Shown here: positions 24,255 through 42,001 of the stretch, piece after piece
Layout: each line of letters opens with the position of its first letter
Numbering within the stretch: position 1 is the first letter of the stretch
From: Candidatus Sumerlaeota bacterium
Lineage (GTDB): Bacteria > Sumerlaeota > Sumerlaeia > MWCT01 > JAUWMI01
Direction of reading: 5' to 3'
NCBI GenBank assembly: GCA_030613245.1
Contig: JAUWMI010000031.1
Location: 1 to 57,446, forward strand
DNA length: 57,446 nucleotides
Notes under the pieces: generated by a model
What the model was told of the DNA's origin: nothing
The model's input: the letters and a program-made list of their open reading frames with translations, nothing else
Databases searched by the model: none
Translations under genes and position numbers: made by a program

Positions 24255-24374
24255 CTTTTTGCCCGCTCATACAGACGGGATGATTGCAGCGCGCCCCCGG
24301 CGCAGTAAATTTCTGAATTCCGGATGGAGCCGGTTTGATTCAGATGGAATCTGCGGATATGGTTTAAATCATTG

Positions 24375-25526
24375 ATGCCCTTTACTCTCGAACAACTCAC
24401 TGCCATTGTTGATACCCTTGCCCCCTTTACCTATGCCTCATCCTGGGATAACGTTGGCCTTCAACTCGGGGAGCCCGATGCCCCGATCCGCCGCGTACTT
24501 GTCACTCTGGACGTCACCCCCGCGGTGGTCCAGGAAGCCCGCAGGAAGCGCTGCGACGCCATCATTTCCCATCATCCCCTCATCTTTCATCCCATGAAGC
24601 AAATACTGCCCTCTGCCTATCCAGGGAGTCTGGTAATGAAACTCATACGATACGGTGTGGGTGTAATTGTCGCCCACACCAATCTCGACAAGTCCCCCAA
24701 CGGGACGAATAAAGCCCTAGCCGATGTGCTAGGGCTTTTTCATTTAGAGATATTCCAGCCAGAATGCCACGCTACCCACGTCAAACTTACCGTCTTTGTC
24801 CCCAAAGGCTACGAGAACGACATTATCAACGCTATTGACCGTGGTGGTGGGGGCACTATTGGTCTCTACAGCCACTGCACATTCCGCACACCCGGCCTTG
24901 GCACGTATGTTCCACTTGTCGGAGCAAAGCCCTTTAAAGGCCGAAGCGGCAAACTGGAGGTGGCTGAAGAATATCGCCTGGAAACCCTTGTGCCGAAATC
25001 GCACATTCGCTCGGTAATCAAAGAAGTCATTCGCGCCCATCCCTACGAGGAGGTTGCTTACGACGTCTACACCCTTGAGCCTACCCAATCGTCCTTCAGG
25101 ATGAATCCTTTCCTTCAGGATGAATCCTATGGGCTAGGGTATATTGGCCATCTGAAACGGCCAATGCAGCTTGAGACATTCGCAAAGAAGGTGAAGACCG
25201 CACTAAAAACCAAGACGCTGGCAATCGTTGGCTCACCACGTGCCCGCATCCGAACTGCGCTCGTCTGCGCAGGCAGTGCACCTGAGATCATCCGCTCGCC
25301 GTCTGCGAAGCGCGCCGATGTAATCGTCACTGGTGAGCTCTCACACCACGCTGCACTGGAGGCGCAGACACTGGGCCTGAAGGTCATCGCGGCCGGACAT
25401 TTCGCCTCTGAGTGGCCCGTGGTGTCTCATCTGGCCAGACTCTTACGAAGCAACTCCCAAATCAAACAAGCACGAGTGACGATTGCCGTCTCAGCTGCAA
25501 ACACTCCTCCTATGGCGTGCAGATAG
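24375..25526 (+). CDS. Nif3-like dinuclear metal-centre protein (YqfO type)
   Basis: 383 residues, starting at ATG 24375. The family length of about 370 with a PII/CutA-like insert marks the YqfO type. Metal ligands are seen in ISHHPLIFHP, in AHTNLDKSPNGTN and near the end in GHFASEWP. The insert (about 130-235; HVKLTVFVPKGYENDIINAI and AHPYEEVAYDVY) is the usual second domain. The protein forms a toroidal hexamer; a GTP cyclohydrolase I type 2-like role has been proposed but is not settled. It is followed 37 bases later by the zinc-ribbon gene, a pairing seen in many bacteria. Confidence 0.95.
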   Translation: MPFTLEQLTAIVDTLAPFTYASSWDNVGLQLGEPDAPIRRVLVTLDVTPAVVQEARRKRCDAIISHHPLIFHPMKQILPSAYPGSLVMKLIRYGVGVIVAHTNLDKSPNGTNKALADVLGLFHLEIFQPECHATHVKLTVFVPKGYENDIINAIDRGGGGTIGLYSHCTFRTPGLGTYVPLVGAKPFKGRSGKLEVAEEYRLETLVPKSHIRSVIKEVIRAHPYEEVAYDVYTLEPTQSSFRMNPFLQDESYGLGYIGHLKRPMQLETFAKKVKTALKTKTLAIVGSPRARIRTALVCAGSAPEIIRSPSAKRADVIVTGELSHHAALEAQTLGLKVIAAGHFASEWPVVSHLARLLRSNSQIKQARVTIAVSAANTPPMACR

Positions 25527-32056: not shown

Positions 32057-32417
32057 GATAGTCCCCTCTCGTAAGAAAAAATTTGATCCAAAATTTTGAA
32101 GATATCTCTGTAAAATTAACCCTGAGTTAATGAATAATCGTTATTCTACTATTCACGCACTTTGGCAATTAATTAATGAATGGATAGCGTGATTTTTCAG
32201 CGTCTCTGTTATTTTTCCACATGCTGCACCTCAGTCAAGCAAAATAATGGAAGTGTTAGTGTGTTTCTGCTTGCGTGGCAGGATTGCTTTAGTAATATGA
32301 GCAGTTGGGGAGTTTTCTATAACGCCGACTGCTCATCCTGAGGAGCGAAGCGACGAAGGATCTTACTCCTATAATGATAAATGTGAAGATTCAGCAGTTA
32401 ATCGAAGAGTGAATGAT
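32057..32417. other. Intergenic region, repeat-rich
   Basis: 361 bases. The first 220 show nothing recognised apart from A+T-rich DNA upstream of the minus-strand operon. The rest holds the first of three composite repeats around the GIY-YIG gene (32300-32362). Confidence 0.45.
32300..32362. repeat. TCATCCTGA composite repeat, upstream copy
   Basis: A stem-loop GAGCAGT...ACTGCTC enclosing TGGGGAGTTTTCT (32300-32334), followed by TCATCCTGAGGAGCGAAGCG and ACGAAGGATC. Both modules recur within and after the GIY-YIG gene. Confidence 0.7.
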
Positions 32418-32855
32418 ATGAGAAATAGATTAGGATATGTATATGTTCTTACAAACAAGAATAATCGTGTGTTATATGTAGGGTCAAGTAGTAACTTGGT
32501 GAGACGAGTCAAGTTCCATAAAAAGGCATACCTTATAATGAGATCCTTCACGGAGTTTATCCTGAGCGAAGCCGAAGGGTTCAGGATGACGGGTCAGAAA
32601 CTCTCCGACCCGTCAAATAAATTGGTATATTATGGGGTTTTTGCTGATATAGTAAGTGCTCGTCGTAGAGAGCGTCAGATAAAGGGTTGGAGACGTGAAA
32701 AGAAAATGAGATTAATAGAATCAATGAATTTGAAGTGGATGGATCTCTATAATGGCTTGAAAGGATTCATCCTGAAGGAGATCCCTCCCCTTCACTTTGT
32801 TCAGGGTCGGGATGAGGAGTCGGAGGTAAAACTCCCCGACCCCTCAGTAATATAG
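32418..32855 (+). CDS. GIY-YIG nuclease-domain protein with in-frame repeat insert
   Basis: 145 residues from ATG 32418 (a GTG three codons upstream is also possible). YVYVLTNKNNRVLYVGSSSNL is the GIY-YIG start, with Tyr pairs and Arg in LVRRV; RERQIKGWRREKKMRLIESMN and KWMDLY are the normal end of this single-domain, YhbQ/UPF0213-like group. Between HKKAYL and NKLVYYGVF, where relatives have about 10 residues, there are 27 residues (SFTEFILSEAEGFRMTGQKL...) encoded by a palindromic repeat. After KWMDLY another 30 or so residues come from a second copy. The core may still fold; activity is uncertain. Confidence 0.85.
   Translation: MRNRLGYVYVLTNKNNRVLYVGSSSNLVRRVKFHKKAYLIMRSFTEFILSEAEGFRMTGQKLSDPSNKLVYYGVFADIVSARRRERQIKGWRREKKMRLIESMNLKWMDLYNGLKGFILKEIPPLHFVQGRDEESEVKLPDPSVI
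32542..32614. repeat. TCATCCTGA composite repeat, copy inside the GIY-YIG gene
   Basis: GATCCTTCACGGAGTTTATC followed by CTGAGCGAAGCC, GGGTTCAGGATGAC, then a hairpin GACGGGTC...GACCCGTC around AGAAACTCTCC. The reading frame stays open through it. Confidence 0.8.
32764..32848. repeat. TCATCCTGA composite repeat, downstream copy
   Basis: ATTCATCCTGAAGGAG, TTGTTCAGGGTCGGGATGAG, then GGTAAAACTCCCCGACCCCT. It has the same two modules as the other copies but is more degraded, and encodes the extra C-terminal residues of the GIY-YIG frame. Confidence 0.7.
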
Positions 32856-33113
32856 AAGTCTGTGAGGCTGTAGGGCAAAGTGTGCAAAAAATGAGGGCAT
32901 CTGAGACATTCGACTCACCATTATTCCTAACCTGCCCTCAATAAAGCAGCCTGATGGAAAACAAACATGCCTTTGACTGATTCAAAACATAACGACGGAC
33001 AGAAATCCATCCGCATTGACCATAACCACCATATTTCCAACAAACTACAACTATCATAACGATTGGTTCATTTCTTGCAAATACCCAGATATAACAATCT
33101 TAGGGAGAATAGC

Positions 33114-34550
33114 ATGCTAACAAATTTTGCGTCCCGATCCGGCCGATACGCAGGCAGCAGTACTTCAAAAATGCCCGGGGCCAGGCTCGGCCTGAGCGCG
33201 CTTCTGATTCTGATGTCTGTATTGTTCGCAATACACGCACCCATAGTGCATGCGCTTCCATTTTTAAAGGCCTCACGTGGGGCTGATGAGCCCACAACGT
33301 CCGTGGCTGCGCAACCGGAGTTCTATAGCACAGACGCACAATTGCGTCGCCTGATTAGCGAGGCGCTGGTCCGCAATCCCCAGCTGCGCGAAACTGAAGC
33401 ACGCTGGCGCGCCAGCATCGAGAAAATTCCTCAGGTCAAGGCCTTGCCCGACCCGATGCTGACTATCACACAATTCATCGAGAATGTCGAAACGCGCGTT
33501 GGCCCGCAGCGCAACATCCTGGCCCTCTCGCAGCAGTTCCCCTGGTTCGGCACGCTCAGCCTCAAAGGCAAGATCGCCTTCCAGGAAGCCCTGGCCCAGG
33601 CCGAGCGCTACGAGGCCCGGCAACGCGATATTATCCGCCGCATGAAAAATACCTATTACGACCTTTACTTCATCCACATGGCCATTGCCATCACCCGCGG
33701 TGATCTTGAGCTCCTGCAGCGCTTCGAAAACATCGCAGCCACGCGCTACGCTACCGGCAAAGGCATTCAGCAGAACGTCATTAAAGTACAAACGGAAATC
33801 ACCAAAGACCAGGATCGCCTTCTCGTGCTTATGAAGCAGCGCGACACTCTTGATGTCATGATCAATGCCCTGATTGACCAGCCACGTGAACCCAAGTCTT
33901 ACGAACCAGCTGACTTCTCTATTCCTTCGCCGTCGCTCGACATGGACGATCTTTATGCTCTGGCGCATCAGAACCGCCCTGATCTTCAAGCCACGCGTCA
34001 TGCCATTGAGAAAAGCCAGCTCCGCGTCCAGCTCGCTAAAAAGCGCTACTGGCCCAATCTGCGTCTCGGGTTTGCTTATATCAACGTGGGGGACCGGGAA
34101 GACCGACCCGGCCGCTTGATGCCCCCGCCCGACAATGGCCAGGATGCCTACAACGTCTCACTTGGAATCAGTCTCCCCATCTGGCGCGCGAAGTTACGCG
34201 CCGCGCTTAACGAAGCCGAACACCTGCGAACAGCCGCTCAGGCACAGCATGACAAGGTTGAAAACGAAACTGACTTCGACATTCGCAATCTGCATCTACG
34301 TCTCGGCACAACTCGTGAGCAACTCGAGCTCTACTCTACCGTGCTCATTCCGCAGGCCGAGCAATCACTCAATTCCTCGGAAGCTGCCTATACAACCGGC
34401 AAGCTGGGATTCCTGGATCTTCTCGACAGCGAGCGCATTCTGCTTAACGTCAGGATGGCCTTCTATCGTCTGAAGGCCGACTATATGAAAGCCCTGAGCG
34501 ACCTCGAACGTGCTCTGGGCGTTCCTTTTCCCTCATCATCAGGTATCTGA
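33114..34550 (+). CDS. TolC/CusC-type outer-membrane efflux channel
   Basis: 478 residues from ATG 33114, chosen for its AGGGAGA site; an upstream ATG at 33063 has none. An export segment (about 28-50, LGLSALLILMSVLFAIHAPIVHA) is followed by two repeats of the outer-membrane efflux protein fold (LISEALVRNPQLRETEARWRA, then LYALAHQNRPDLQATRHAIEK). Long helices follow, and the end EAAYTTGKLGFLDLLDSERILL is typical. It forms the trimeric exit duct of an RND pump. The next genes cusB and cusA complete the pump; spacing to cusB is 24 bases. Confidence 0.92.
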   Translation: MLTNFASRSGRYAGSSTSKMPGARLGLSALLILMSVLFAIHAPIVHALPFLKASRGADEPTTSVAAQPEFYSTDAQLRRLISEALVRNPQLRETEARWRASIEKIPQVKALPDPMLTITQFIENVETRVGPQRNILALSQQFPWFGTLSLKGKIAFQEALAQAERYEARQRDIIRRMKNTYYDLYFIHMAIAITRGDLELLQRFENIAATRYATGKGIQQNVIKVQTEITKDQDRLLVLMKQRDTLDVMINALIDQPREPKSYEPADFSIPSPSLDMDDLYALAHQNRPDLQATRHAIEKSQLRVQLAKKRYWPNLRLGFAYINVGDREDRPGRLMPPPDNGQDAYNVSLGISLPIWRAKLRAALNEAEHLRTAAQAQHDKVENETDFDIRNLHLRLGTTREQLELYSTVLIPQAEQSLNSSEAAYTTGKLGFLDLLDSERILLNVRMAFYRLKADYMKALSDLERALGVPFPSSSGI

Positions 34551-34574
34551 GCGACGACAAGGAGACTAAGAACA

Positions 34575-36593
34575 ATGTCCGATAATGAAAACATGACGAA
34601 CGAGAAGCCCCAACAGGAAGCTGCGCCCCCATCGGCACATAAGTACCACCCATGGCGCCGGACCGGGATCGGCATCCTCATCGGCCTCGCACTGGCAGCA
34701 TTTATCGTGATAAATCCGCTGCACTGGAGCCCACTCAGCTCAATCCAGCAGAAAGAAAAAAGCGAAACCGGACTCTGGACATGTGGCATGCACCCACATG
34801 TGATTCAAGACACCCCCGGCCTATGCCCCATCTGCAACATGAATCTCGTGCCACTCAAGCGCACTACGCTTGGCGAAACTGTCTCCCAGGCCCCATCCGC
34901 AGAGCCAAAGGCGCCCGGCAAGAAAAAAATCAAATACTGGGTCGCTCCAATGGACCCCACCTACATCTCCGATAAGCCCGGCAAATCACCTATGGGCATG
35001 GATCTCGTCCCGGTCTATGAAGATGAAGAAAAATCCGCCGGAGCGGTTATTACTATTGATCCCATCACCGTGCAGAATATCGGCGTCAAATCCCAGCAGC
35101 TCGTGCGCGGGGATCTCGCTCATACCATCCGCACAGTCGGCATCCTCGATTACAATGATAAAGCCATATACTGGGTCACCACGAAATACGACGGCTGGAT
35201 TCAGAAGGTCTACGTCAATTACGTCGGCGAGCAAGTCACCAAAGGGCAGAACCTCTTCGAAATCTACAGCCCTGATCTTGTATCTACACAGGAAGAGTAT
35301 CTGACTGCCCTGGATTACGCTGCGGATCTGGCAAAGGCGCCGAAAAAATTCCAGACCCGTGGCCCTGAATTACTGCTCGACGCAGTACGAAAACGCCTCC
35401 GCTACTGGGACATCACCGAACAGCAGATCAAAACCCTCGAACAGACACGTCAGATCGAAAAGGCTCTCACCGTAGTCTCGCCCGTTGACGGATATGTCGT
35501 GCAAAAAATGGACGAAGCCCTCGAAGGCATGTACGTTAAGCCCGGCATGAACCTTTACAAAATCGCTGACCTCTCCACAGTCTGGATCCATGCCGACATC
35601 TATGAGTACGAATTCCCCTGGATACAAGTAGGCCAGGAGGCTGAAATAGAGCTCTCCTATTTCCCCGGTGAACGGTTTACCGGCAAGGTGCTCTACGAAT
35701 ATCCGTATCTCAGTGAAAAGACACGCACCATGAAGATTTGCATCGAGGCACCCAACCCTGGCCACCGCCTGCGCCCGGGCATGTATGCCAACGCCCGGAT
35801 CAAAACCTCCCCCTTGGAAAACGTGCTCCAAGTCCCCGAAGAGGCCGTCATTCATTCAGGAGAACGTAACGTGGTGATTGTGGATAAAGGCGGCGGTCGC
35901 TTTGAACCTCGCACCGTCATCCTTGGCGTCCATGGTGACGGCGTTTTCCAGGTTAAAAGCGGCCTTCATGACGGCGAGCGCATCGTCACTTCTGCCCAGT
36001 TCCTCATTGATTCCGAGAGTAATCTACGCGAGGCAATTAACAAGATGATCGCATCACGGCTGGCTGCCAAACAGGCCCCAGCACCCGAGGCCATACCTCC
36101 ATCCAAAACCCCTGCTATGACCGAAATACCCGTTTCCCTTACTCCTGCGCTGGATGAGGCTCTCAGCCATGTGCTCGGAAATGAATACATCCCCCTCTGG
36201 CATACCCTGGCTGCTGATTCAAGCGAAGGCGTCACCGCACACGCTCAGGCCATTGCCTCGCGCCTTCAGCATCTCCTCCACACTGAAGCTGATGACAACC
36301 TCAAATACCTTCTCACACCTGTGATTCTAAGCGCCAGTCGTATGACACAGCCCGCTCTGGCTGACCTTCGCACAGAGTTTAAAACCCTCAGCCAGACGTT
36401 CATCACCGTCCTCGAGCGTCTCCGCCCCACCGCGCTCTCAAAGAAGTCATACGGCGTCTTCTATTGCTCAATGGCTGATGCTTTCTGGATTCAAGACAGC
36501 CCAAAGGTACGCAATCCGTACTTCGGATCCGAGATGCTCGATTGCGGCGAAAAACAGCGTGATCTCTCCCCCAAGGAGCACCCGCATGATTGA
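34575..36593 (+). CDS. cusB: CusB-like RND periplasmic adaptor with two metal-binding domains
   Basis: 672 residues. A membrane anchor (about 28-50) is followed by a full heavy-metal-binding domain, CGMHPHVIQDTPGLCPICNM. A second copy has lost its Cys (YWVAPMDPTYISDKPGKSPM). The adaptor follows (about 150-490): lipoyl-like halves WVTTKYDGWIQKVYVNYVGE and VVSPVDGYVVQKMDEALEG, then the beta barrel. The C-terminal 140 residues match DUF3347 (FYCSMADAFW...NPYFGSEMLDCGE), a likely extra metal site. It passes Cu/Ag-type ions to the CusA pump. The stop overlaps the cusA start by 8 bases. Confidence 0.93.
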   Translation: MSDNENMTNEKPQQEAAPPSAHKYHPWRRTGIGILIGLALAAFIVINPLHWSPLSSIQQKEKSETGLWTCGMHPHVIQDTPGLCPICNMNLVPLKRTTLGETVSQAPSAEPKAPGKKKIKYWVAPMDPTYISDKPGKSPMGMDLVPVYEDEEKSAGAVITIDPITVQNIGVKSQQLVRGDLAHTIRTVGILDYNDKAIYWVTTKYDGWIQKVYVNYVGEQVTKGQNLFEIYSPDLVSTQEEYLTALDYAADLAKAPKKFQTRGPELLLDAVRKRLRYWDITEQQIKTLEQTRQIEKALTVVSPVDGYVVQKMDEALEGMYVKPGMNLYKIADLSTVWIHADIYEYEFPWIQVGQEAEIELSYFPGERFTGKVLYEYPYLSEKTRTMKICIEAPNPGHRLRPGMYANARIKTSPLENVLQVPEEAVIHSGERNVVIVDKGGGRFEPRTVILGVHGDGVFQVKSGLHDGERIVTSAQFLIDSESNLREAINKMIASRLAAKQAPAPEAIPPSKTPAMTEIPVSLTPALDEALSHVLGNEYIPLWHTLAADSSEGVTAHAQAIASRLQHLLHTEADDNLKYLLTPVILSASRMTQPALADLRTEFKTLSQTFITVLERLRPTALSKKSYGVFYCSMADAFWIQDSPKVRNPYFGSEMLDCGEKQRDLSPKEHPHD

Positions 36594-39500
36594 GCACATC
36601 ATCGCTTTCTCCATCAATAATCGATTCTTTGTCATTATGGCCACGCTCATGGTCATCGTCATTGGTGGCTACTGCCTGCTGAACATACCGCTCGATGCAA
36701 TTCCCGATCTCAGCGACGTTCAGGTCATCGTGATGACTGACTACCCGGGTCAGGCACCCAGGGTTGTTGAGGATCAGGTGACCTACCCGCTGACAACCTC
36801 CATGCTTTCAGTTCCCTATGCCAGCGTGGTTCGTGGCTACTCGTTTTTCGGCCTCTCGTTCGTCTACATCATCTTCGAGGACGGCACGGATCTCTACTGG
36901 GCGCGCAGCCGCGTACTCGAATACCTCAACTTCGTGCAAGACCGTCTTCCGCCCGGCGTCACGCCTTCTCTCGGGCCGGATGCCACGGGTGTCGGATGGA
37001 TTTACGAATATGCTCTTACCTCAAAGTCTCACTCACTCCAGGAACTGCGCTCGATCCAGGATTGGTACCTCAAGTATGAACTCACCAGTGTGCAGGGCGT
37101 TGCAGAGGTGGCAAGTATCGGTGGTTTTGTCAAGCAGTACCAGGTAACTTTGGATCCCGTTAAACTGCTAGCCTATAATCTTCCGCTCAGCAAAGTGCGT
37201 GTGGCCATCCAGCGCAGTAATCGCGACGTTGGCGGACGCGTTATCGAAATGGCGGAAACCGAATTCATGATCCGCGGCCTCGGCTATATTAAATCCGTTG
37301 ACGACGTGAAGAACATCGCAGTGGACGTTGGCCAGAGCGGCACCCCTATCCTGATCAAAGACATTGCCACGGTCTCACTCGGCCCGGAACTACGCCGCGG
37401 CCTGGTAGAGCTTGACGGCGAAGGCGAGGTGGTAGGTGGAATCATTGTAATGCGGCTGGGCGAAAACGCCCTCGAGACTATCAAACGCGTCAAGCAAAAA
37501 CTCGAAGAGCTCAAACAGGGCTTGCCTGAGGGCGTTGAGATCGTCCCGGTCTACGATCGCTCTGCCCTGATCCTCCGTGCCATCTCCACCCTCAAACGCA
37601 AATTGACCGAAGAAATGATAGTCGTCGCACTTGTCTGCGTCCTTTTCCTCCTCCATTTCCGCAGCGCCTTTGTAGCTATCTTCACCCTACCGGTTGGAAT
37701 CCTTATTTCCTTCATCATCATGTATCGCATGGGAATCAACGCAAACATCATGTCGCTCGGGGGAATCGCCATTGCCATCGGCGTGATGGTTGACGCATCT
37801 GTGGTCATGGTGGAAAACGCCCACAAGCATCTCGAACACGCCAGGGCACAAGGCAATTCGTTTGATCGGAGCGAGATAATTCTGCAGGCATGCCGCGAAG
37901 TCGGCCCCGCGCTTTTCTTCTCGCTGGTTATCATCACACTCTCGTTTCTTCCCGTCTTCGCGCTCCAGGCGCAGGAAGGCCGCCTCTTTAAACCTCTGGC
38001 CTACACTAAAACCTTTGCCATGGCCGCCTCCTCCATTCTGGCCATAACACTCATTCCTGTGCTGATGTTCTATTTCGTGCGCGGCCGCATTATTTCAGAA
38101 AAAAAGAATCCTCTCAGTCGTCTCCTCATCGCCATCTACATGCCACTCATCAGGCTCGTGCTCCGTTTCCCCAAGACAATCATCCTGCTCACTATCATCG
38201 CTACCCTGCTCACCTGGCTCCCCTACCGTCAGATCGGGTCTGAATTCATGCCTCCACTCTACGAGGGCGACTTCCTTTACATGCCAACCACCCTGCCCGG
38301 CATCTCTATCACCAAGGCGCGCGAACTCCTGCAACAGACCGATAAAATCATTAAACAGTTTCCCGAAGTTGAACGAGTGTTTGGCAAAATTGGCCGCGCG
38401 GAAACCTCCACTGATCCAGCTCCCCTCAGCATGATCGAAACCACCATCATGCTCAAACCTATCGAGGAGTGGCGGCCAGGTATGACTCCTGATAAACTCG
38501 CCAACGAAATGGACCAGGCCATACAGTTCCCCGGGCTCACCAATGCCTGGACCATGCCAATTAAAACCCGCATTGACATGCTCAGCACCGGCATTAAAAC
38601 CCCGGTGGGCATTAAGATTGCCGGCCCTGATCTCAACGTCCTCCAGAGCCTGGGCGAAGAGATCGAAGCCGTGGTTCGTACCATTCCCGGCACCCTGAGC
38701 GTCTATGCCGAACGCGTGATGGGCGGTAATTACCTGGACTTTCAGATTGACCGCAAGGCAATTGCCCGCTACGGACTGACTGTGGACGACGTGCAGGAGG
38801 TCATCATGTCCGCAATCGGTGGCATGAAAATCACTCAGACCGTTGAAGGCCTGGAACGCTATTCCGTGAATCTACGCTATGGCCGAGAGCTGCGCAGCAG
38901 CCCCGAAGCGCTGCGCCGCGTGCTCGTGCCCACCCCACGAGGCGAGCAAATCCCACTCGGCCAGCTCGCCACACTCTCGATCAAGAAAGGCCCGGCTGTT
39001 ATTAAAAGCGAAAATTCCCGCCTCAACGCATGGATCTATGTGGACGTAAAAGGGATTGACATTGGCACCTACATTAAACGCGCAAAAAGGACCCTTAACG
39101 AAAAAATCAATATCCCGGTCGGATATAACCTCAAGTGGAGCGGACAGTATGAATACATGGAGCGCGCTCAAAAACGGCTCCAGCTCGTTGTCCCCTTAAC
39201 CCTTGCCATTATCTTCTTCCTGCTCTATGTGCATTTTCGCAACATCACGGAAAGCTTGATCGTTCTCTTCTCGCTCCCCTTCGCCCTCGTTGGCGGCATC
39301 TGGCTAATGTGGGCCCTGGGATTCAACATGAGTGTGGCAGTAGTGGTTGGCTTCATTGCTCTGGCCGGCCTCGCTGCGGAAACCGGTATCGTGATGCTCG
39401 TCTATCTTGACCAAGCCTATAAACAGCGGCTCCACGATGGTCTCCTCAGCTCTAAGAAAGAGCTCGATCACTGTATCATTGAAGGCGCGGTGATGCGCGT

Positions 39501-39771
39501 CCGACCGAAAATCATGACGGTGACCACCACTATCATGGCCCTGATTCCCATCATGATCGGCACTGTCGGAGAAACCGGCTCCGAAGTTATGAAACGCATT
39601 GCATCGCCAATGGTCGGCGGGCTCGTAAGCTCTACCTTCCTCACGCTTCTTATTATCCCCGCTATCTATCGCATCTGGAAAGGGTTCGAGCTCAGACGCA
39701 CGCTACGCAGTACCGCAGCAGACGGACCACCGCCCGCCCTTGCAGATGAAACGAAACAGGGAGGAGAGTAA
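36586..39771 (+). CDS. cusA: CusA-like heavy-metal efflux RND transporter
   Basis: 1061 residues from ATG 36586, which overlaps cusB; a frame 36 codons longer would run through cusB and is not used. It starts IEHIIAFSINNRFFVIMATL and continues NIPLDAIPDLSDVQVIVMTD, typical of the heavy-metal exporter (HME) branch. Proton-relay helix 4 reads GIAIAIGVMVDASVVMVENA. Twelve membrane helices and two large periplasmic loops; MSAIGGMKITQTVEGLERYS matches the CusA cleft region, including a Met. It exports monovalent Cu/Ag or divalent metals across both membranes with CusB and the TolC protein; the exact ion is not determined. Confidence 0.96.
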   Translation: MIEHIIAFSINNRFFVIMATLMVIVIGGYCLLNIPLDAIPDLSDVQVIVMTDYPGQAPRVVEDQVTYPLTTSMLSVPYASVVRGYSFFGLSFVYIIFEDGTDLYWARSRVLEYLNFVQDRLPPGVTPSLGPDATGVGWIYEYALTSKSHSLQELRSIQDWYLKYELTSVQGVAEVASIGGFVKQYQVTLDPVKLLAYNLPLSKVRVAIQRSNRDVGGRVIEMAETEFMIRGLGYIKSVDDVKNIAVDVGQSGTPILIKDIATVSLGPELRRGLVELDGEGEVVGGIIVMRLGENALETIKRVKQKLEELKQGLPEGVEIVPVYDRSALILRAISTLKRKLTEEMIVVALVCVLFLLHFRSAFVAIFTLPVGILISFIIMYRMGINANIMSLGGIAIAIGVMVDASVVMVENAHKHLEHARAQGNSFDRSEIILQACREVGPALFFSLVIITLSFLPVFALQAQEGRLFKPLAYTKTFAMAASSILAITLIPVLMFYFVRGRIISEKKNPLSRLLIAIYMPLIRLVLRFPKTIILLTIIATLLTWLPYRQIGSEFMPPLYEGDFLYMPTTLPGISITKARELLQQTDKIIKQFPEVERVFGKIGRAETSTDPAPLSMIETTIMLKPIEEWRPGMTPDKLANEMDQAIQFPGLTNAWTMPIKTRIDMLSTGIKTPVGIKIAGPDLNVLQSLGEEIEAVVRTIPGTLSVYAERVMGGNYLDFQIDRKAIARYGLTVDDVQEVIMSAIGGMKITQTVEGLERYSVNLRYGRELRSSPEALRRVLVPTPRGEQIPLGQLATLSIKKGPAVIKSENSRLNAWIYVDVKGIDIGTYIKRAKRTLNEKINIPVGYNLKWSGQYEYMERAQKRLQLVVPLTLAIIFFLLYVHFRNITESLIVLFSLPFALVGGIWLMWALGFNMSVAVVVGFIALAGLAAETGIVMLVYLDQAYKQRLHDGLLSSKKELDHCIIEGAVMRVRPKIMTVTTTIMALIPIMIGTVGETGSEVMKRIASPMVGGLVSSTFLTLLIIPAIYRIWKGFELRRTLRSTAADGPPPALADETKQGGE

Positions 39772-40973
39772 TGCCTGTTCAATTACCCCGAGACCTTACA
39801 CGCAAAATCTTCTTTGTCCTCTTTCTCCTGTTCGCTATAACCATGCTGCATTACTTCACTCCTACGCGCTACTCCTCCTACCACGAAATTTATCGGCGCT
39901 GTTACTACATTCCAATTATTCTTGCGAGCTTCTGGTTTGGCCTGTATGGCGGCCTCGGCACCAGCCTGCTGATTAGCCTCATTTACTTTCCTCACGTCCT
40001 GCGCGATTGGGGCGGCCATCTCCTCACCGAAAACCTCAGCCGCACGATGGAAATCGTCCTTTATAACGCCGTGGGACTGATCACCGGTTACCTCGCCCAG
40101 CACCTGGCAGCTGAGCGAACCCGCTATCGCACCACTGCTTATGAGTTGCAAGAAACCAATAAAGAATTGCGGCAGAAAACCGAGGCCCTCGAGCAGGCCT
40201 ACCACTCGCTCTCACAGAAATCCGCCGAGCTGGAAAAGACCTATCAGGATCTGCGCACCCGCACTCAGGAAGTATTCGCAATCGAAAAACAACTGCAGCG
40301 CGTTGACCGCCTCGCTGCCCTCGGCAATCTCTCCGCTACTCTCGCCCACGAAATACGCAATCCCCTTGCCTCTATCAAAGGCACTGCTGAAATCTTGAAA
40401 GACAAGTTCGATCCCACAGCTCAAGAGTACGAATTCGTCCAGATTCTCATCGCCGAAACAGAGCGCCTTAACCTGGCACTCACAAATTTTCTCACTTTTG
40501 CCGGCACACAGAAACCCGACCAGGCCGTCAGCAATGTCGCAACAGTGCTGCACCACGTTATTGCCCTGCTCAAGCCCCAGTTAACTCAGAGCGCAGTTCA
40601 GGTGAATATCGCCGAGGAGGGAGAGCTGTTCCATGCCCGGATTAACTCCGAGCAGCTCAAACAGGTCTTCCTTAACCTGATCCTCAACGCCATCCAGGCC
40701 ATGACGTCATCCGGCCAGATCACCATCCAGCTTATTGAGTTGCCTGAGAACATCCGGGTTTCAATTGCTGATACTGGCCCCGGAATCCCTCCTGCAGAGG
40801 CAGAGAACATCTTCACTCCGTTCTTTTCTACCAGAGCGAACGGCGCAGGCCTTGGCCTCTCAATTGCTTCTAAAATCGTCAACACCTACAATGGCTCGCT
40901 CTCATTGGATCAATCCTACACCAACGGCGCACGGTTTCTCATTTCCTTGCCCAGCGCTCCAAAGCCGCTCTGA
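39771..40973 (+). CDS. Membrane sensor histidine kinase in the cus operon
   Basis: 400 residues. Its ATG overlaps the cusA stop by one base (TAATG) with GGGAGGAGA upstream, so it is translated with the pump. Three or four membrane helices (1-110) form a sensing region like DUF4118 (YYIPIILASFWFGLYGG). A coiled coil (about 125-175) leads to HisKA with LAHEIRNPLASIKGTAEIL, then HATPase motifs NLILNAIQAM, DTGPGIP and GAGLGLSIA. It probably senses metal or envelope stress. No response regulator lies next to it, so the partner must be elsewhere. Confidence 0.93.
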   Translation: MPVQLPRDLTRKIFFVLFLLFAITMLHYFTPTRYSSYHEIYRRCYYIPIILASFWFGLYGGLGTSLLISLIYFPHVLRDWGGHLLTENLSRTMEIVLYNAVGLITGYLAQHLAAERTRYRTTAYELQETNKELRQKTEALEQAYHSLSQKSAELEKTYQDLRTRTQEVFAIEKQLQRVDRLAALGNLSATLAHEIRNPLASIKGTAEILKDKFDPTAQEYEFVQILIAETERLNLALTNFLTFAGTQKPDQAVSNVATVLHHVIALLKPQLTQSAVQVNIAEEGELFHARINSEQLKQVFLNLILNAIQAMTSSGQITIQLIELPENIRVSIADTGPGIPPAEAENIFTPFFSTRANGAGLGLSIASKIVNTYNGSLSLDQSYTNGARFLISLPSAPKPL

Positions 40974-41668: not shown

Positions 41669-42001
41669 ATCCCACAGAACTGATTGCCTCACCGTTCAGT
41701 AAAACAATCCAGCGCCCTAGCCCGAGCTTCGCCGCTCTTATGCTCAGTATTTAACCCTTACTTGTCTTTGAATGGTCAGTGTGGGAAGCAGAAAAAATAC
41801 TGGGGACAATGGAAGGTTAATAATGCAGGTGTTCACCCAACAATATTTATATTTCCCTAAAGTCTGCTCTACATGGCTGAGGGGAACGACATCTCCACGC
41901 GGTCTTTTAGGCTAAGCTCCTGACAAGCATATCCATCGCCACAAAACGGAATGCAAGACAGCATCAGGATGACCGTAGGTATATTCATTACTCATGATGC
42001 A
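41669..42001. other. Intergenic region between convergent genes
   Basis: 333 bases between arsC and the sensor kinase, which converge. No gene, strong hairpin or known repeat was recognised. Confidence 0.5.

Follow-up and report, generated by a model that had tools for sequence, protein, structure and literature searches.

What relation does a small GIY-YIG gene bear to the repeats that precede, interrupt, and follow it? This question is raised by a locus in the window, by which we mean the whole stretch of 57,446 nucleotides analysed here. The motif TCATCCTGA occurs six times in the window against 0.63 expected, a count that was reached by 0/100 shuffles, and three of the six occurrences lie inside 32333-32775. 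A preliminary description of this DNA had placed three copies of one repeat before, inside, and after the gene, and the sequence, the TCATCCTGA counts, and a Pfam search agree with it as to their presence. The three are not equivalent, however, because the outer two are the left and right ends of one element of 549 bp (32298-32846) and the third is a nested fragment; an exact match to AAACTCCCC is found only in the two outer copies, while the inner copy reads AAACTCTCC. A chance origin of the three copies was ruled out by the shuffles and by the backward control given below. Elsewhere in the window, two TCATCCTGA copies at 25096-25123 form a short in-frame scrap inside another ORF, and the copy at 41964 is isolated. 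The scrap belongs to two in-frame tandem units of ~19 bp each (CCTTCAGGATGAATCCT) at 25092-25130 of the unrelated ORF 24372-25526, and these units match a GGATTCATCCTGAAGGA scrap found near the right end of element copies.

The outer copies are mutually inverted, the left end occupying 32298-32364 and the right end about 32776-32846, and the 6-bp direct repeat GTAATA stands immediately outside both of them, so that the borders of the element can be read directly in the DNA. Each end is composed of an outer hairpin, which has a TGAG..CTCA stem and the conserved GGGGAGTTTT in its loop, and an inner palindrome, which in the left end is TCATCC..GGATCT. The parts are as follows.

32292..32297, no strand: left target-site duplication GTAATA, which recurs exactly and in the same direction at 32847-32852, beyond the opposite border of the element
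32298..32335, + strand: left outer hairpin TGAGCAGTTGG..CCGACTGCTCA with loop GGGGAGTTTT, from sequence, end match, and compensatory stem changes (DNA fold of 32298-32364, z -2.07)
32333..32364, + strand: left inner REP-like palindrome TCATCCTGAGG..GAAGGATCT, with 27 genome matches to GATCCTTC..CAGGATGA and 0 in the backward control
32409..32855, + strand: GIY-YIG gene, from ORF, Pfam, and alignments; alternative ATG at 32418; reads out through the right end
32540..32615, + strand: in-frame nested fragment, from the right end of a related small element, with the junction CCGTCA/AATWAATTGG (the slash marks the joint) common to copies C46 and C77
32776..32814, + strand: right inner palindrome GAGATCCCTCCCC..GGTCGGGATGA, from sequence, inverted to the left end and aligned with other copies
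32813..32846, + strand: right outer hairpin TGAGGAGTCGG..CCGACCCCTCA with AAAACTCCCC, from sequence, end match, and compensatory stem changes
32847..32852, no strand: right target-site duplication GTAATA, a direct repeat of 32292..32297

The element is located upstream of a set of efflux genes (33063-40973), in which Pfam recognizes an outer membrane efflux protein and a HlyD/CusB-like protein with heavy metal binding domains, accompanied by two further long ORFs.

The left end occurs at least 22 times in the same genome (4.29 Mb in 97 contigs), which also contains the 27 palindrome matches listed above. Nine PF01541 matches were found in it, and in seven of them the palindrome stands just upstream in the same orientation; the remaining two, one of which lies within a 635-aa open frame, are without an upstream palindrome. 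A uniform scan detected an exact direct repeat of at least 6 bp at the borders of 11 of the 14 two-ended copies, while pairing the borders in shuffled combinations gave such repeats in 417 of 25,944 cases. The repeats measure 6 bp in eight copies, 7 bp in two, and 8 bp in one, and the longer ones fit a 6-bp duplication extended by chance. Among the other three copies, one is cut by a contig end and two have the imperfect pairs GTTATC/GTTATA and GCTAAA/ATTAAA. Two additional copies outside the scan pattern, read by eye, have the duplications AGTAGC and TTTATA, and the target sites of the element resemble GTTAAC. Inverted ends accompanied by a duplication thus recur in several copies (11/14), as they do in insertion sequences. 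Many copies are internally deleted to 140-230 bp and carry duplications of their own, and some of these keep pieces of both gene ends; this is how MITEs usually relate to a parent element. The paired ends are less than 700 bp apart, a spacing that leaves no larger unit with another transposase between them, and a few right ends are solitary (C22, C91, and C92). The 60 other genomes searched include none of the same genus or family that could supply empty sites, and none of the same order with a match to the window protein. No relative was found in a scan of viral contigs with one protein, and Rfam returned only a sub-threshold match to Acido-1 (21.7 bits against a gathering score of 50).

The protein encoded by the gene, whose frame is open from 32409 to 32855, matches Pfam PF01541 (GIY-YIG) at 47.1 bits, and Pfam finds no second domain in it. 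An alignment that includes the window protein has the conserved Y, YxG, R, E, and N columns of the GIY-YIG superfamily, and the window protein keeps the aligned family positions Tyr, YxG (as LYVG), Arg, His, Glu, and Asn. A structure model (pLDDT 80) gave UPF0213 as the best, though weak, Foldseek match (E 1.9e-3), with the branched-DNA nuclease Slx1 among the nearest solved folds (E 8.1e-2, also weak). The best PDB profile matches are likewise UPF0213 proteins (1zg2 and 1ywl), which are also single-domain GIY-YIG proteins.

The inner copy corresponds to the right-hand portion of a small related element, a complete 149-bp form of which exists elsewhere in the genome. Comparison of the window ORF with the copy in C19, which encodes GGFTKNYNVN, upholds the earlier claim of an in-frame interruption that exchanges about 10 residues for 27, and the replaced stretch includes Gly-Phe residues conserved among relatives. 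The right junction of the inner copy is identical in C7 (the window), C46, and C77, which indicates that the inner copy entered once and that the interrupted gene spread afterwards; an insertion in the window copy alone is thereby ruled out. No uninterrupted full-length gene exists among the assembled copies in the genome, and an active source is therefore missing, unassembled, or in the past. Four contigs (C33, C69, C71, and C75) break off within an element copy or no more than ~175 bases from one, and assembly collapse may thus have removed intact copies. A small extra palindrome, ATCTCGGTCGCCTTGGCGACCAAG, sits inside the GIY-YIG gene at one position in L006, L007, and L009 (copies C94, C17, and C41).

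The ends of the element were also examined as structures. In 20 distinct outer hairpins, out of 27 collected, 97.6% of the stem cells are paired and 18 cells are changed on both sides, which was matched by 0/500 shuffles; sliding the partner by 1-3 columns lowered the pairing to about 50% at most. Sequence thus varies among the left, right, and variant ends while the fold stays the same, and by this sequence comparison the outer hairpins are kept as structures. The compensatory changes between these ends point to recognition of folded DNA. Predicted DNA folding was better than that of shuffles for the left end (z -2.07) and the inner copy (z -2.45), and not clearly better for the right end (z -0.97).

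Familiar palindromes, TGTCATTCCCGCG..GGAATCCAG for example, stand on both sides of the homologues of the gene that were found in the 60 other genomes. In a scan of named genomes, which yielded 80 related GIY-YIG loci from many phyla, 79 loci were scored, and in 60 of them the flanking inverted repeat was reached by at most 1/100 mock positions of the same locus. When a tagged palindrome of the CGTC type was defined by a GTC tag, a stem starting AT or AC, and a tail C[CT]A toward the gene, 50 of the 79 loci had it on both sides, 20 on one side, and nine on neither, while the 7,900 mock positions gave one two-sided and 106 one-sided cases; the reverse orientation on both sides was seen at nine real loci. 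In 25 of 30 of these genomes, copies of the pattern are dispersed, and the controls gave a single hit overall. Among 30 further alpha-class loci, 20 beat their mocks, and all four loci inspected, out of 18 plasmid-collection records (Rhizobium, Planktothrix, Novosphingobium, and Neisseria gonorrhoeae), had palindromes on both sides by eye, those of the N. gonorrhoeae record being dRS3-type repeats.

The palindromes are not a general feature of GIY-YIG genes. When 41 genomes were searched with PF01541, 30 loci were found, 29 of which were scored for a flanking repeat; it was present in 6/9 loci scoring above 100 bits with the clade-A model, in 3/6 of the intermediate set, and in 0/14 of those below 36 bits, which include UvrC-length frames, so that an association with any GIY-YIG gene was ruled out. 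Clade B, which came to light in the intermediate set, is flanked by another common palindrome, CTCATCCTGAGC..TCGAAGGATGAG, and 14 of 28 clade-B loci beat the mocks. A third search, in which 19 of 25 loci beat the mocks, showed that KGWxRxKK proteins go with TGTCATNCTGAGCG..GAAGNATCT palindromes and KxGSRxKK proteins with TGTCATTGCGAGG..GCAATCT palindromes; the window protein (KGWRREKK) and its palindrome TCATCCTGAGG..GAAGGATCT fit the former group. Each of four GIY-YIG clades is paired with one of four palindrome classes. In a tree built from 160 proteins, 128 carry a palindrome label, and the four labels need four changes, the minimum being three, while shuffled labels needed a mean of 32.7 and 0/200 shuffles came as low as four; the label CCA is found in 70 of 79 rows of L097-L176 in this set. 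The result persisted in a tree thinned to 25 rows of less than 62% identity (four changes; shuffled mean, 11.8; 0/200 as low), in which the window protein, left unlabelled, groups with the two TCT-tailed groups with support of 98/96. Three genomes (G061, G099, and G298) contain both clades A and B, each gene with its own palindrome class.

Co-occurrence was counted in 240 genomes of one class, as raw numbers in which kinship is ignored. Of the 68 genomes that have a strong clade-A gene, 38 contain at least 10 CGTC palindromes, versus 11 of the 172 that lack such a gene (odds ratio, 18.5), and in genomes of at least 2.5 Mb the corresponding figures are 32/48 versus 10/73. Class-B palindromes (at least three) are found in 14/26 genomes with clade B versus 8/214 without it. 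In genomes without clade B, class-B palindromes are not tied to clade A (1/54 versus 7/160), and where clade A is absent, CGTC palindromes are weakly linked to clade B (3/12 versus 8/160, p 0.03). Kinship again being ignored, each clade predicts mainly its own palindrome class, with exceptions: 14 of the 68 clade-A genomes have fewer than three palindromes by the pattern used, 11 palindrome-rich genomes are without a strong clade-A gene, and no palindrome of the class-B pattern is present in 10 of the 26 genomes with clade B. The suggestion in the preliminary description that this GIY-YIG gene is a counterpart of REP-associated transposases, in which case the repeat should be enriched near such genes across genomes, finds support in the two-sided loci (50/79 versus 1/7,900 mocks), in the class-specific enrichment over the 240 genomes, and in the match of clade to palindrome on the tree.

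Outside the window family, the occupancy of sites can be compared in Bradyrhizobium, where eight of nine loci share one orthologous site (A) with the order palindrome-gene-palindrome. The ninth, L153, is empty at site A and occupied instead at site B, which lies some 4 kb from it. Four relatives were aligned at site B: L132 has nothing there, L174 has unrelated sequence, and L141 and L164 each have a bare palindrome pair. Empty and occupied orthologous sites are both present, at a divergence too great for insertion borders to be placed to the base. REP borders other than those of the window family show no excess of target duplications (at least 5 bp in 8 of 114 loci, about 6 expected).

The known analogue of this arrangement is the REP-RAYT system with its REPINs (PMC2817692, PMC3733652). 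In both, a small gene is flanked by two inverted tagged palindromes (Nunvar et al. 2010 state that two inverted REPs always flank RAYT genes; PMC2817692), the palindromes are dispersed and often form head-to-head pairs, their class follows the protein clade, and, in the wider GIY group as in REP-RAYT, target duplication is absent; here, the palindromes are two-sided in 50/79 loci and dispersed in 25/30 genomes. The RAYTs are, however, IS200/IS605-like HUH Y1 proteins acting with GTAG-tagged REPs, whereas PF01541 is the only domain in the protein encoded here and the tag is CGTC/TGTC (YGTC) in clade A and CTC in the window. The window family differs further from REP-RAYT in its 6-bp duplication and in the extra outer hairpin at each end. 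The clade-A palindromes have the YGTC tag, the AT stem start, and the CCA tail, and also the head-to-head pairing, of the CGTC REPs, Neisseria dRS3, and Rickettsia RPE-4/RPE-6 (PMC3733652). Di Nocera et al. 2013 equate CGTC-1 of Neisseria with dRS3 and the Rickettsia families with RPE-4 and RPE-6 (PMC3733652). The occurrence is also alike, mainly in alpha-Proteobacteria, Neisseria, and Bradyrhizobium, the Rickettsia side being taken from that survey. There, the CGTC REPs are described as unlinked to any transposase gene, and their mover is left open (PMC3733652), whereas here they are paired with GIY-YIG genes. The window palindrome (CTC..ATCT), with its CTC tag and CT tail, is a sister class of the CGTC REPs. 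The use of GIY-YIG by selfish DNA has parallels in I-TevI-type homing endonucleases and Penelope elements, but the present protein has no second Pfam domain, and its gene resides in a short hairpin-ended element, not in an intron or retroelement. The word stem "palindrom" does not occur in the portion used here of the GIY-YIG superfamily study of Dunin-Horkawicz et al. 2006 (PMC1564403), nor do "transposase" and "nuclease" in the main text of RepRanger 2025 (PMC12306157), as far as that text was available. The titles and abstract openings of the literature searched, a scope outside which subscription papers and preprints lie, held no link between GIY-YIG and REPs. The wider group looks like a REP system in which a GIY-YIG protein takes over the position of the RAYT.

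On balance, we are inclined to think that the window contains one copy of a small mobile element that has inverted hairpin-pair ends and a gene for a single-domain GIY-YIG nuclease alone, that it belongs to a widespread group in which each GIY-YIG clade has its own class of dispersed palindrome, and that the protein cuts and moves these palindromes. The element's borders and duplications, its deleted descendants, the covariation of the stems, and the pairing and co-occurrence by clade are shown by the data; the role of the protein as cutter, the form in which it meets the DNA, and the joining are inferred. The protein would recognize its own palindrome class as folded DNA, a hairpin or a cruciform, and nick it at the foot of the stem; the nick would allow the palindrome, alone or as a pair enclosing the gene, to be released or copied into a new site, and gene-less pairs would spread in trans as REPINs do. 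In the window family, a cut staggered by 6 nt would be made in an AT-rich target that resembles GTTAAC, and the 6-bp duplication would arise by gap repair. No strand-transfer activity is known for GIY-YIG enzymes, and the sealing of the ends would thus fall to host replication or repair. We propose that GIY-YIG proteins are the missing factor for the CGTC-type palindromes, with a RAYT-like role played by an unrelated enzyme. The broader view, that small GIY-YIG nucleases constitute a class of mobilizing enzymes, each clade moving its own palindromes and all of them together having given rise to a large part of the short palindromes that are dispersed in bacterial genomes, among them dRS3 and perhaps RPE, seems to us evenly poised between true and false.

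The main rival is homing targeted to REPs, in which a selfish GIY-YIG nuclease would cut gene-less palindrome pairs and be copied into them by recombination, the palindromes themselves spreading in another way. It would account for the enclosure of the gene by a head-to-head pair whose palindromes point outward, a form shared with gene-less pairs, and for site B of Bradyrhizobium, which is empty in some genomes, a bare palindrome pair in others, and of the order pair-gene-pair in one; clade-to-class matching fits target recognition equally well, and the flanking repeats could be a preferred landing site instead of the enzyme's substrate. We nevertheless regard homing as unlikely, given that the deleted copies of the window family keep gene remnants and their own target duplications, which implies that gene-less forms descend from gene-bearing ones, and that palindrome abundance tracks the matching clade, which homing alone does not predict. 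Somewhat less probable again is that the window element is MITE-like and moved in trans by an unrelated DDE transposase, with the GIY-YIG gene and the REP-like palindromes as cargo. DDE elements usually have a constant duplication and near-identical terminal sequences, as are seen here in the ~6-bp duplication and in TGAGNNGTCGGGGAGTTTT, and the wider GIY-REP group is without such duplications; however, a larger unit is never enclosed by a pair of ends, the ends are themselves palindromes with compensatory stem changes, and the same pairing of GIY-YIG gene to palindrome exists in many phyla without the outer ends. It seems very improbable that the GIY-YIG proteins serve the host by processing or regulating REP structures, through cruciform resolution or repeat control, and are near them as a result of co-inheritance: their patchy presence, the occupied and empty sites, and the several copies per genome (11 hits in G213) look selfish, even if Slx1 and UPF0213 are among the nearest solved folds and the gene is at one orthologous place in eight of the nine Bradyrhizobium loci.

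The CGTC-type REPs, dRS3 and the Rickettsia RPEs included, have been catalogued without a known mover, and their clade-by-clade pairing with one small nuclease family makes the question of the mover directly testable in a system that consists of a protein of ~95 residues and a 30-nt palindrome, with a predicted switch of specificity between clades. If movement by the GIY-YIG protein is true, one more type of enzyme would join the short list of those that move DNA, besides the DDE, HUH, serine/tyrosine, and Cas1 types, and an abundant class of bacterial repeats would be explained, the palindromes being moved either in cis as a hairpin-ended element or in trans as REP pairs.

Two minor observations concern the surroundings of the related genes. 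In Planktothrix agardhii plasmid p1 (L325), a CTGAG-class GIY-YIG gene lies between an annotated MmeI-type restriction gene and the DISARM gene drmA. Also, GIY-YIG frames often run into the downstream palindrome (L075 and clade-B loci such as L208), which gives the proteins tails such as WIPTSVGMT and SSFDKLRM.
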